36,179 nt of DNA from an uncultured Saprospiraceae bacterium (GTDB lineage: Bacteria > Bacteroidota > Bacteroidia > Chitinophagales > Saprospiraceae). The stretch's first letter is position 1, and each line of letters opens with the position of its first letter. This document shows, piece by piece, positions 4,544 through 26,665 of this stretch. Made by a program: the position numbers and the translations under genes. Location: assembly GCA_947311465.1 (NCBI GenBank), contig CAMZLN010000066.1:1-36179 (forward strand). Direction: 5' to 3'. The notes below the pieces were generated by a model. That model worked only from the letters and a program-made list of their open reading frames with translations, was not told where the DNA came from and made no database searches.

Positions 4544-5200
4544 ATGTTGTATCTTGTCCCCACACCTATTGGAAATTTAGAAGATATCACTTTGCGTGCT
4601 ATTCGAATTCTGAAAGAAGTTGATTTAATTCTGGCAGAAGATACTCGTACTTCTGGTAAGTTGTTAAAGCATTATGAAATTGAGACAAACATGAGATCTC
4701 ATCACACACATAATGAACATCATACATTGGATCAAATTATTGAGCAATTAAAATCGGGTGTAAATATCGCTTTAATCACAGATGCTGGTTCTCCAGGAAT
4801 TTCTGATCCAGGCTATCTTTTGGTGCGGTCGGCAGTTCAAGAAAAAATACAAATTGTACCTTTGCCAGGAGCTACTGCTTTTGTCCCTGCCCTTACCGCT
4901 TCAGGTATTCCATGTGATAAATTCCATTTTGAAGGTTTTTTACCTCATAAAAAAGGACGACAAACTCGATTAAAATATTTGGCTACGGTCCCCAATACTT
5001 TTGTTTTATATGAATCTCCATTTCGATTGATTAAATGTCTTAAACAGATATTAGAATTTTGTGGAGATAGACCTGCTGCAGTTGGACGGGAAATATCGAA
5101 AATGTATGAGGAGATTGCTACGGGTAGTATTTCTGAATTGATTGACGAATTTGAGAAAAGAGATAAGGTGAAGGGAGAGATTGTAGTTGTAGTGGGGTAG
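4544..5200 (+). CDS. rsmI: 16S rRNA (cytidine1402-2'-O)-methyltransferase RsmI
   Basis: The 218-aa product has the tetrapyrrole-methylase fold signatures of RsmI: LVPTPIGNLEDITLRA at the N terminus, ILAEDTRTSGKLL (~28-40), ITDAGSPGISDPGY (~79-92), PLPGATAFVPAL and FEGFLPHKKGRQ. The enzyme uses SAM to 2'-O-methylate C1402 in the 16S rRNA decoding centre. The protein stops right after GEIVVVVG, so it lacks the C-terminal extension seen in some longer RsmI proteins. It is the third gene of the pssA-purS-rsmI group, 3 bp after purS. A clear terminator is not seen after its stop. Confidence 0.92.
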   Translation: MLYLVPTPIGNLEDITLRAIRILKEVDLILAEDTRTSGKLLKHYEIETNMRSHHTHNEHHTLDQIIEQLKSGVNIALITDAGSPGISDPGYLLVRSAVQEKIQIVPLPGATAFVPALTASGIPCDKFHFEGFLPHKKGRQTRLKYLATVPNTFVLYESPFRLIKCLKQILEFCGDRPAAVGREISKMYEEIATGSISELIDEFEKRDKVKGEIVVVVG

Positions 5201-5284
5201 AATCTCATCCTGAAAAAACTATGTCGTCCTGAAAAAACCTTACAGTTAAAAAATAAATCCTAAAATAGCTTTTCATCATTTTTT

Positions 5285-5314
5285 TTTGAAATTCAAAAAA
5301 AAGATGTACATTTG
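5285..5314 (+). promoter_or_regulatory. Bacteroidota-type promoter (TTTG-N18-TACATTTG)
   Basis: TTTG at 5285-5288 and TACATTTG at 5307-5314, separated by 18 nt, match the Bacteroidota -33/-7 consensus. The predicted transcript starts about 5320, roughly 350 nt before the next large gene. Confidence 0.6.
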
Positions 5315-5372
5315 CACAAAATGATTGTATTATCAACATTGATTGATATCTAGATAATTTATTAGCGTGTTA

Positions 5373-5462
5373 ATGAGTGCTCACCACATGTCTTTGTGCT
5401 GGGCGCTTGTTTGTTTAGGCTCTTTTTTGTTTTTTTATCTTAGCGAAAAATCGCTACCGTAA
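5373..5462 (+). CDS. Possible 29-aa small membrane protein or leader peptide
   Basis: Too short for the ORF track. It starts ATGAGTGCTCACCAC and ends at the TAA 5460-5462. The peptide has a polar start (MSAHHMSLC), a hydrophobic stretch (WALVCLGSFLFFYL) long enough to span a membrane, and a short polar tail (SEKSLP). It lies in the leader between the promoter and the 613-aa gene and overlaps the hairpin at 5376-5407. No purine-rich ribosome binding site is evident, but many Bacteroidota genes lack one. It could equally be a chance ORF in a structured RNA. Low confidence. Confidence 0.25.
   Translation: MSAHHMSLCWALVCLGSFLFFYLSEKSLP
5376..5407 (+). ncRNA. Strong leader hairpin 1 (cis-regulatory RNA or sRNA element)
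   Basis: AGTGCTCA pairs with TGGGCGCT (8 bp, two G-U), then a C/C mismatch, then CACA pairs with TGTG around a 6-nt loop. A U-rich stretch follows (TGTTTGTTTAGG then two T6/T7 runs), so the hairpin might itself pause or terminate transcription. A further small hairpin, AGCG-AAAAAT-CGCT, lies at about 5442-5455. I do not recognise a known riboswitch class. Confidence 0.4.
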
Positions 5463-5535
5463 ATAGTAGAAAATATCTTATTTGCATATTAAATTTGTTC
5501 TAATTATAATTTATGAGCAATGAACATGAAACTTT

Positions 5536-5667
5536 ATGGTTCTAGACAAATCCTTTTTTATGGGAAATAATAATTCAAAACGAGATGAGAAGGCTTCTTA
5601 TCTTTTGAATTTTTCTCTTCTAATAGGATTGTCAAAGAACAAACATTATATAATATTAAAGAAATAA
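5536..5667 (+). CDS. Possible 43-aa upstream ORF, ends 2 nt before the next start codon
   Basis: The frame starts ATGGTTCTAGAC and stops with TAA at 5665-5667, just 2 nt before the ATG at 5670. That spacing would permit translational coupling. The peptide (begins MVLDKSFFMGNNNSKRDEK, ends HYIILKK) resembles nothing I know. It contains the terminator-like hairpin 5573-5610 in its middle. It could be a regulatory leader peptide or chance. Confidence 0.2.
   Translation: MVLDKSFFMGNNNSKRDEKASYLLNFSLLIGLSKNKHYIILKK
5573..5618 (+). terminator. Terminator-like hairpin in the leader (possible attenuator)
   Basis: ATTCAAAA pairs with TTTTGAAT (8 bp). Inside it, after a 3-nt bulge, GATGAGA pairs with TCTTATC (one G-U) around a 5-nt loop. 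The right arm runs straight into TTTTCTCTTC, a U-rich tract. It sits about 52 nt upstream of the start codon at 5670. This placement fits an attenuator, or the 3' end of a ~290-nt RNA starting at the 5285 promoter. Confidence 0.45.
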
Positions 5668-5669
5668 TT

Positions 5670-7511
5670 ATGAGCAAAGTTCACTCTATACATATTCCTG
5701 TAATGGGTCTCGGATTTACAATGGATACACCGGCAAAGGTGGCTCAATATGGAATCGATTCAGTAATCTCGATTGGAGATGATATTCTTATTGAAAAGTT
5801 GAGAAAAGCCTATTGCGAAAATCTCAAAATACCTTACGAAGAAATACATACTAAAATTGAAGATTTTCGAGCTAAAAGGATTACAGCTTATCTTAATTTA
5901 ATGAATGAATTGGTGGTGAAGCGGTTTGAAGAACTCAAAACTTCAACGATGGAATCAGGAAGTGAAATGAAAAAATATTTCGACATGTTACCAGATTCAT
6001 TGTCAATCAAAAAGGAGTTTTCTGACTTTCTTAATAAAATTCCAAGCCTAGATGACGTAAAAAACTGGGCGAAAGATAATTTCTCAATGGGAAGTATTGA
6101 TGTCAATATTATGACAAAAGTAGATCAAGCGCATTATGATGAAAATGGAGAAAAACTACCTATTATGCATAATGATGCCTTTGCAGGAATTAGAGGCTTC
6201 GCAAATAGCGTTTTAGATTCTTCTTTGGTGTTTTCAGCAGGTATGAATCCTAGGTTGTATGGATACGCTGAAGAATTTGATGGCTTTTATCCCGATGAAG
6301 CAGGTCATATCAAGAAAAAAATAGTCTTGAAGGTAAGTGATTATCGTTCTGCGATTATTCAAGGTAAATTTTTAGCAAAAAAAGGACTTTGGGTTTCTGA
6401 ATTTCGAATAGAATCTGGGCTTAATTGTGGGGGTCATGCCTTTGCCACTGATGGCTTTTTATTCGGTCCTATTTTAGATGAGTTTAAAGAGAAGAAAGAA
6501 GATCTTAAAATTGAAGTTTTTGAAATACTAAAAACTGCTTTGGAAAAGAAAGGTCGTATTATTCCTACGAATATCTTGGATTTAAAAATAACAGCTCAAG
6601 GAGGCGTTGGAACTGCCGAAGAACATGAGTTTTTATTGGATCATTATAAAGTAGACTCTGTGGGATGGGGAACACCTTTCTTATTAGTTCCAGAAGCAAC
6701 TTTAGTGGATCAAGATACTATGAATAAGTTGGCTGCTGCCAAAGAAGATGATTTATACATGAGTGGTATTTCTCCTTTGGGAATCCCGTTTAATAGTTTA
6801 CGAAATAATACGAAAGATCAAGAAAAGGAAGCGTTGATTGCAAGTGGCCGCCCAGGAAGTCCATGTCCTAGAAGATTTTTAACATACAATACAGAATTTA
6901 CGGACAAACCAATTTGTGCTGCTTCTCGCCAATATCAACGTTTAAAGATAAAAGAATTGCAGACATTAAATTTGGATGAAAATTCTTATAAAGAACAATT
7001 TGATAAAATAGTCGATAAAGCTTGTCTATGTGTAGGTCTAGGTACTTCCGCAGTGATGGTTACAAATGCAGAAAATACGGTTGAGAAAGAAGCGGTTTTA
7101 GTTTGTCCTGGTCCCAATATGGCTTATTTTTCAAAAGAAGTATCTTTAGAGAAAATGATAGGACACATTTATGGTCGAAATAATATAATTTCAAGAACAG
7201 ATCGTCCGAATATGTTTGTAAAGGAATTGAAATTATATGTGGATTACTTAAAAGGCAAAATGGATGAGGCTAGATGGAATATGAATAGAAAAAATGAAAA
7301 ATATTTGACTAAGTTTGTCGCAAACATGAAAGATGGGGTTGAATATTACCAAAACCTTTTTAGTAATGTAAAGAATAAATTCATTGATTCAAAAGAACAG
7401 ATTCTTTCTGAATTAGATCTAAGTAAAAAAGTATTGACACTTTTAGCTTATGAAATTGACAGTATGGTGGCGGAAAGCAAAAAAGAGTTACAAGTTACAG
7501 TAAAAAAATAG
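5670..7511 (+). CDS. Uncharacterised 613-aa protein with a nitronate-monooxygenase-like TIM-barrel signature
   Basis: I do not recognise a named gene. The N terminus (HIPVMGLGFTMDTPAKVAQYGID) looks like the first strand of an FMN-type TIM barrel. Near residue 309 the segment AQGGVGTAEEHEFLL followed by SVGWGTPFLLVPEAT resembles the phosphate/FMN-binding loop of nitronate monooxygenase (NPD) and related enzymes. It is cysteine-bearing in patches: SGLNCGGHAF (~248-257), GSPCPRRF (~396), KPICAASRQ (~409), KACLCVGLG (~450) and VLVCPGPNM (~479). These could bind metal or an Fe-S cluster. No signal peptide or membrane segment was seen. The C-terminal ~110 residues look helical and charged. It is a single gene behind a structured leader and followed by a hairpin. 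An FMN-dependent redox enzyme is the best guess, with low certainty on function. Confidence 0.6.
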   Translation: MSKVHSIHIPVMGLGFTMDTPAKVAQYGIDSVISIGDDILIEKLRKAYCENLKIPYEEIHTKIEDFRAKRITAYLNLMNELVVKRFEELKTSTMESGSEMKKYFDMLPDSLSIKKEFSDFLNKIPSLDDVKNWAKDNFSMGSIDVNIMTKVDQAHYDENGEKLPIMHNDAFAGIRGFANSVLDSSLVFSAGMNPRLYGYAEEFDGFYPDEAGHIKKKIVLKVSDYRSAIIQGKFLAKKGLWVSEFRIESGLNCGGHAFATDGFLFGPILDEFKEKKEDLKIEVFEILKTALEKKGRIIPTNILDLKITAQGGVGTAEEHEFLLDHYKVDSVGWGTPFLLVPEATLVDQDTMNKLAAAKEDDLYMSGISPLGIPFNSLRNNTKDQEKEALIASGRPGSPCPRRFLTYNTEFTDKPICAASRQYQRLKIKELQTLNLDENSYKEQFDKIVDKACLCVGLGTSAVMVTNAENTVEKEAVLVCPGPNMAYFSKEVSLEKMIGHIYGRNNIISRTDRPNMFVKELKLYVDYLKGKMDEARWNMNRKNEKYLTKFVANMKDGVEYYQNLFSNVKNKFIDSKEQILSELDLSKKVLTLLAYEIDSMVAESKKELQVTVKK

Positions 7512-25615: not shown

Positions 25616-26665
25616 TTATAAAGAAATATAATATTCTAAACTTTCTTGAATCAGTGAATTATTCGCTGTTTGATTTAAAATGATGGTCCCAATTTCTGAA
25701 ATCATGGTGAAATTGATGATTTGGTTTTCGTTCTTTTTATCCTTGGTCATTAAATGTAAATAGGTCGAAAAATTTGATTTTTTCAATTTATATTTTCCAT
25801 AGTGGTTAATGATGTATGTGGATATTTTATCTAATGACTGAGCCGAAAGTCCAACTACTTTGTGCGATAAAAAGGATTCACAAATCAATCCAATCGCAAC
25901 GGCTTCTCCATGCAAAAGAGAAATTCCATTACTTAATGCATGACTTTCTATCGCATGTCCTATGGTATGACCGAAATTTAAAGATTTTCGCAATCCCATT
26001 TCAAAGGGATCTTTATGAACTACAGATTTTTTTATTTCTAAGGACGGTATGATGTATTTTTCCCAATCTGTAACTTCTGATATTTTTTTTATATTTTGAA
26101 GTTCTATCCAATCATCTTTGGATGCGATTAATCCGTGTTTGATTAATTCTGCGAATCCACTACGAATTTCTCTAATGGATAAAGTCTTTAAAAAATCTGC
26201 TGATACACAAACTTGACTTGGATTTTTAAAAAGCCCAACGGCATTTTTTAAATTCATAAAATCAATACCTAATTTACCACCAATGGATGCATCAACTTGA
26301 GAGAGTAGGGTGGTTGGAATTTGAATAAAATCCATTCCTCGATAGAATGTGGATGCTGTAAATCCACCCATATCTCCTATCACACCACCACCAAGATTAA
26401 TCATACAAGATTTTCTATCTGCTCCGTTTTTGACCATTTCTGACCAAATAAATTGACAAGTCTCTATGTTTTTATGAATTTCTCCAGATTGTATTTCTAT
26501 GAGATGGAAATCCAAATTCGAGATATTATTTTCGAAAATTGGTAAGCAATGTTCTTTTGTGTTTTGATCTGCAAGCACAAAAATAGATGAATACTTTTTT
26601 AGTTGTATCTCCTTCCAAAAATCTCCAATTTGTATCTTGTAGGTATCTAAATCTATAACTTTCAT
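25616..26665 (-). CDS. aroB: 3-dehydroquinate synthase
   Basis: The 349-aa cytosolic NAD+- and metal-dependent enzyme turns DAHP into 3-dehydroquinate, step two of the shikimate pathway. Key motifs are present: the NAD-binding NLGGGVIGDMGGFTASTFYRG (~90-110), PTTLLSQVDASIGGKLGIDF, GFAELIKHG, GHTIGHAIESHAL and HGEAVAIGLICES with metal-binding His/Glu residues. Its stop is at 25618-25616. The final ~38 codons are duplicated at 21083-21197, and a two-gene T9SS block sits between the two copies. An ABM-like gene ends 22 bp upstream, with a tandem-repeat array at the junction. The gene looks intact and of normal length. Confidence 0.95.
   Translation of the reverse strand: MKVIDLDTYKIQIGDFWKEIQLKKYSSIFVLADQNTKEHCLPIFENNISNLDFHLIEIQSGEIHKNIETCQFIWSEMVKNGADRKSCMINLGGGVIGDMGGFTASTFYRGMDFIQIPTTLLSQVDASIGGKLGIDFMNLKNAVGLFKNPSQVCVSADFLKTLSIREIRSGFAELIKHGLIASKDDWIELQNIKKISEVTDWEKYIIPSLEIKKSVVHKDPFEMGLRKSLNFGHTIGHAIESHALSNGISLLHGEAVAIGLICESFLSHKVVGLSAQSLDKISTYIINHYGKYKLKKSNFSTYLHLMTKDKKNENQIINFTMISEIGTIILNQTANNSLIQESLEYYISL

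Follow-up and report, generated by a model that had tools for sequence, protein, structure and literature searches.

A probable MITE and a predicted promoter-terminator unit adjoin in the leader of a conserved gene of an uncultured Saprospiraceae bacterium

Does the long leader of a conserved gene without an assigned function contain a regulatory RNA, or has its structure another origin? The question is raised by the intergenic spacer of 469 nt (5201-5669) between rsmI, which encodes the 16S rRNA 2'-O-ribose C1402 methyltransferase (4544-5200, plus strand, TIGR00096 above cut-off), and the gene of a 613-aa protein (5670-7511, plus strand). Both genes are located on a contig of 36,179 nt, analyzed here at its full length and called the window, which belongs to a draft genome of 3.0 Mb and 84% completeness (G000). 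The whole leader is predicted to fold with -89.8 kcal/mol (z = -3.8 in comparison with shuffled sequences), and the initial annotation had proposed a new cis-regulatory RNA, an attenuator or a small RNA of about 290 nt. Our analysis indicates that the region is composed of two unrelated things adjoining each other, a probable MITE in the 3' part and a predicted promoter-terminator unit in the 5' part.

The 613-aa protein is conserved, but neither Pfam nor NCBIfam gave a match to it; its closest relatives suggest that the genome probably belongs to the Saprospiraceae. At least 558 stretches encode it; it is common in Bacteroidota and also occurs in Ignavibacteriales, Chlorobiota and Neomarinimicrobiota MAGs, and the motifs CGGH and CPGP are invariant. 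The structure model is TIM-barrel-like with low confidence (pLDDT 60) and gave weak matches including PfaD, which were not used as evidence. In one other genome of the sample a relative of the gene is cut to two pieces at one place (G001:C159, L005 and L006, residues 4-93 and 411-568), which is an internally deleted remnant. Elsewhere in the window, ARAGORN called a tRNA-Cys (anticodon aca, 26305-26394, minus strand), which lies within a 349-aa open reading frame on the same strand and is probably a false positive.

The 3' part of the leader is very probably a MITE that has inserted there, and not an attenuator. Positions 5538-5641 (minus strand) form a palindrome of 104 bp (fold z = -4.6) with the terminal inverted repeats GGTTCTTTGACAAATC, in the window copy GGTTCT(TTG)ACAAATC. 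The palindrome includes the hairpin 5573-5618 that had been described as terminator-like; the hairpin does exist, but as an intrinsic terminator it was absent from a consensus scan and outside the best 30 sites of a scan of U-tracts. When the leader was compared by BLASTN with 399 genomes of the order, a single long match was obtained apart from the locus itself: a stretch on another contig of the same genome (G000:C69) that is 72% identical to window positions 5534-5640 (107 nt, E = 8.5e-8). This copy is a nearly perfect palindrome (z = -8.1), and its neighbors are what we take to be ssb and a gldE-like gene. G000 also contains a third copy, which is partial. Searches with the C69 copy and its ends yielded more intergenic palindromes with the same ends. 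The end motif was found 56 times in G000 compared to 11 times for the reversed control, and a longer motif and its control were counted 17 and 0 times in G000, 81 and 4 times in G014, and 18 and 1 times in G015. A covariance model detected copies in the own genome as well as multi-copy families in G014, G015 and G022, in which the interiors differ and the ends are related. Besides the own genome, relatives of the palindrome are thus known from three further genera of this family. After omission of the window copy from the model, the top match of the window was still 5538-5640 (E = 9.8e-7). In all, the repeats are short, non-coding, intergenic and dispersed in many copies; in G022, some copies of 91 nt are nearly identical to each other and are flanked by duplications. 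The genome of G014, from the same family, has a size of 11 Mb. Pairing of its 81 matches would give about 40 elements, and clean duplications of 8 bp are seen, for example, in L212, L216, L220, L224 and L236. G000 contains another palindrome family as well (AAGTAGTTGGACACATG..., L147 1384-1430 and L174 in G000:C216), possibly a second MITE or the end of an insertion sequence.

The borders of the palindromes point in the same direction. In the window, the order is AACTTTAT (5530-5537), GGTTCT...GAACA and AACATTAT (5642-5649); the two flanks, to which no strand is assigned, are identical at seven of eight positions, and in the whole 469-nt spacer these two borders are the only 8-mers with at least 7/8 similarity to AACTTTAT. 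Flanks of 8 bp that are at least 7/8 identical accompany 15 of the 27 palindromes of the four genomes, while permutation of the right flanks in 5,000 trials gave a mean of 1.2 and a maximum of 6 of 27. Fully identical duplications include GCTTTTCT, ATAAAACA and TTATTTTT from G014. Another one, ATAATAAA, is located in G000 upstream of a gene whose product is presumably an aspartyl-tRNA synthetase. Duplications with a fixed length of 8 bp are a signature of DDE-type transposons, and therefore we interpret the small non-coding palindromes as MITEs. Against this stands that the window duplication has one mismatch and that 2.6% of mismatched AT-rich flank pairs also reach 7/8, and the orthologous spacers do not align with the window spacer, so that an empty site is not demonstrable. 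A further point against it is that ISL3 or IS6-type transposases were not detected in G000, G014 and G015; G022 has one ISL3 gene, which is disrupted and lacks such ends, and no IS6-type transposase. In a search for PF01610 and PF13610 transposases in the four genomes, some of which are incomplete, no element with these ends was found, and a search of a plasmid collection gave no match. Our preferred scenario is that a DDE transposase moved the MITE in trans to a position some 30 nt ahead of the 613-aa gene, with duplication of 8 bp of the target. Its palindromic ends together with the interior would then fold into the hairpin that was mistaken for an attenuator. In view of the repeat copies and the target-site duplication, the identification of 5573-5618 as an attenuator is not supported.

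The ends of the repeat resemble the boxA of ribosomal RNA operons. As the 16S leader of the own genome is absent from the assembly, the boxA of the order was read from two genomes of the same order, where it is GTTCTTTGAAGTATTGG in the 16S leaders (L180, L181) and GTTCTTTGACATATTGG in the 16S-23S spacer (L181:3362). Repeat ends and boxA have 9-11 bases in common, with GTTCTTTGACA as 11 identical bases. This likeness to the antitermination element, together with the many palindrome sites that fall in gene leaders, would fit palindromes that were never transposed but serve at scattered sites as antitermination signals of the boxA type, each paired with a folded structure. We consider such an origin scarcely credible, since the 8-bp duplications and the near-identical G022 copies show insertion, the ends in G014 and G022 depart from boxA, and the window copy lies within a transposon-like inverted repeat and is broken on the plus strand (GGTTCTAGACA), which is the strand carried by the mRNA of the 613-aa gene. 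Because of this broken copy, the likeness of the MITE ends to boxA is regarded as chance or site preference rather than function. It is also very unlikely that these are miniature transposons with functional boxA ends, in which transcripts entering from either side would meet boxA and the polymerase would become resistant to termination; if true, their insertion into an operon would not be polar.

The 5' part of the leader is a different matter. The initial annotation had noticed a promoter of good fit about 355 nt upstream of the gene, and this agrees well with P1 (5286-5315, plus strand), which consists of TTG at -33 (5286-5288), a spacer of 18 and TAcaTTTGc at -7 (5307-5315) and corresponds to the consensus of Bacteroidota (PMC7366714). 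P1 is one of just three intergenic full matches to this consensus in the 36-kb window, and transcription would start near 5320, about 350 nt upstream of the ATG. The strong hairpin that had been placed at 5376-5407 was likewise recovered, with a main stem at 5372-5411 and an extension to 5364-5421 (plus strand, -23.9 kcal/mol, z = -4.26). It is directly followed by the U-tract TTTTTTGTTTTTTT (U6GU7, 5423-5436), which had not been joined to it before. A terminator scan of the window, which covered both strands and the 1,098 U-tracts present on them, ranked this combination of hairpin and U-tract first with -23.4 kcal/mol, followed by the next independent site with -16.7. The region 5364-5436 thus has the stable hairpin adjoining a U-tract that characterizes an intrinsic terminator, with a weak outer stem: the main stem stops 11 nt before the U-tract, and as only five weak pairs bridge this gap, the efficiency of termination is uncertain. 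A small hairpin (TAGCGA-AAAA-TCGCTA) is located further downstream at 5441-5456 on the plus strand.

At the level of sequence, the 5' part has a promoter and a terminator of its own, the features by which intergenic sRNAs of B. thetaiotaomicron are delimited (PMC7366714). A housekeeping promoter of the Bacteroidota type, a strong hairpin and a U-tract would make 5286-5436 a compact transcription unit that starts near 5320 and terminates near 5437; the 613-aa gene would have its own start further downstream. The predicted product would be an intergenic, unconserved RNA of about 117 nt (5320-5436), and its terminator would also block read-through from rsmI. From the proposed small RNA of about 290 nt, the idea of an sRNA thus survives but not the length, and we see about even chances that the 5' part makes such a short terminated RNA. 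It is unique in G000, with no second copy elsewhere in the genome, and a DNA search in the 399 genomes gave only short AT-rich stretches expected by chance.

A simpler explanation would be that the hairpin merely terminates the rsmI operon, while P1 is weak or inactive and no distinct small RNA is made. The rsmI gene stops at 5200 and there is no earlier terminator-like site before 5364, which is in line with this explanation, but the terminator would be located 164 nt behind the stop codon, which is far, and the full consensus match of P1 is rare in the intergenic DNA of the window. We therefore regard termination of rsmI as the sole role to be rather unlikely, although it deserves consideration. 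A cis-acting function for the 613-aa gene, in which transcripts start at 5320, stop by default at 5437 and read through on a signal, appears improbable. The order of promoter and hairpin with U-tract upstream of the gene would be correct for an attenuator, and a 10-codon open reading frame (MIVLSTLIDI) is located at the start of the P1 transcript. Two orthologues with 76-78% identical proteins (L002 and L008) have strongly folded leaders as well (z = -3.6 and -6.1). The hairpins in these leaders, however, differ from the window in sequence and lack its U-tract, and they are not accepted as homologues of its structures. An antiterminator search revealed no competing fold: if the main stem is not formed, even the most stable alternative loses 11.3 kcal/mol, and because of this cost there is no indication of an attenuation switch. 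The attenuator of the initial annotation thus lacks support on two counts, as the proposed hairpin belongs to a transposed repeat flanked by a duplication and the true hairpin with U-tract has no antiterminator within 11 kcal/mol.

The search for related leaders, which had been suggested as a check, did not support a new conserved cis-regulatory RNA either. Rfam gave no credible match to the leader at gathering and relaxed thresholds, with none above the gathering score, and the leaders of about 80 orthologues show no similarity to the window leader and overall fold no better than controls. Among the 399 genomes of the order, which include no second genome of the genus, the leader is unconserved beyond chance stretches. 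Judged by lack of conservation, a criterion of the initial annotation itself, the reading as a conserved RNA fails within this sample. Long near-perfect hairpins right before the start codon were observed in L002 (2010-2047), in L008 (about 60-20 nt upstream of 3001) and in L076 (about 80-40 nt upstream of 3001). Their sequences are unrelated and have no U-tracts, and they are perhaps other mobile palindromes.

Small open reading frames are present, as stated in the initial annotation, but they do not exceed chance in number (P = 0.13) or length (P = 0.09). One encodes a hydrophobic peptide of 29 amino acids and overlaps the 5' hairpin (5373-5462, plus strand); another, with 43 amino acids, lies mostly within the MITE and stops 2 nt before the ATG (5536-5667, plus strand). 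Both are probably due to chance, and searches revealed no family above cut-off and no relative in the loci examined. The hydrophobic segment of the 29-aa frame and a sub-threshold match to the Hok family (E = 0.03) are reminiscent of a type I toxin-like peptide. This reading is extremely unlikely, as the match has a score of 14.1 bits where 73 would be required, the frame is at chance level without a relative, no promoter of the Bacteroidota type is present in antisense orientation in the region and the U-tract would terminate the RNA inside the frame.

If the 5' terminator is active, the 613-aa gene would probably be transcribed from a start downstream of it, possibly from P2 (5490-5497, plus strand). 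This candidate, which the initial annotation did not mention, is a -7-like element (TAaaTTTG) without a -33 element and may be due to chance. P2 would give a leader of 167 nt, close to the leaders of L002 (173) and L008 (147) and within the range of 28-173 nt that follows from the promoters of the four nearest orthologues. Before the MITE and the duplicated target arrived, the P2 leader would have had a length of about 55 nt. The insertion would thus have extended the 5' UTR by about 112 nt, duplicated target included, most of it a stable hairpin, from the end of which about 30 nt remain to the start codon. A modest effect of this hairpin on translation or on the stability of the mRNA is conceivable, with no indication of regulatory use. 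When a palindrome has been transposed into a 5' UTR, it can mimic a regulatory hairpin, and recognizing it averts a false annotation as riboswitch or attenuator; in addition, the MITE family can be used to mask artefacts in RNA-structure scans.

The predicted 5' unit is similar to Bacteroidota sRNAs with a sigma-ABfr promoter and a Rho-independent terminator with respect to promoter type and the short, terminated intergenic unit, and such sRNAs are often strain-specific, as in B. thetaiotaomicron, whose 49 high-confidence intergenic sRNAs include 27 of this kind (PMC7366714). An unconserved sRNA of the promoter-terminator type is thus commonplace in Bacteroidota. In contrast to these sRNAs, the unit described here is a prediction from sequence, and no sequence relative was found.

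The 3' element matches bacterial MITEs in its size of about 65-125 bp, the lack of coding capacity, the inverted ends, the many intergenic copies, the target-site duplication and the strong transcribed hairpin, but differs in that no autonomous partner was found and that the ends GGTTCTTTGACAAATC fit no family tested. Insertion-sequence families with 8-bp duplications include ISL3, IS1595, IS6 and IS66; some IS6 members start with GGTTCTGTTGCAAA and ISL3 members with GGCTCTT. The mostly AT-rich 8-bp duplications of the MITE resemble those of these families, whereas the four repeat-bearing genomes have no IS6-type transposase and the sole, disrupted ISL3 gene, in G022, lacks these ends. MITEs are a known kind of element, but the family with the ends GGTTCTTTGACAAATC appears to be undescribed: no description was found in the literature searched, the coverage of which is incomplete, and within it the repeats, which have an 8-bp duplication and occur in a single taxonomic family in four genera or more, are apparently defined here for the first time. 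With REP and BIME elements it shares the intergenic palindromic repeats, but REPs have a length of 20-40 bp (PMC3733652), from which the MITE family differs in its length of mostly 65-125 bp and in its 8-bp duplications.
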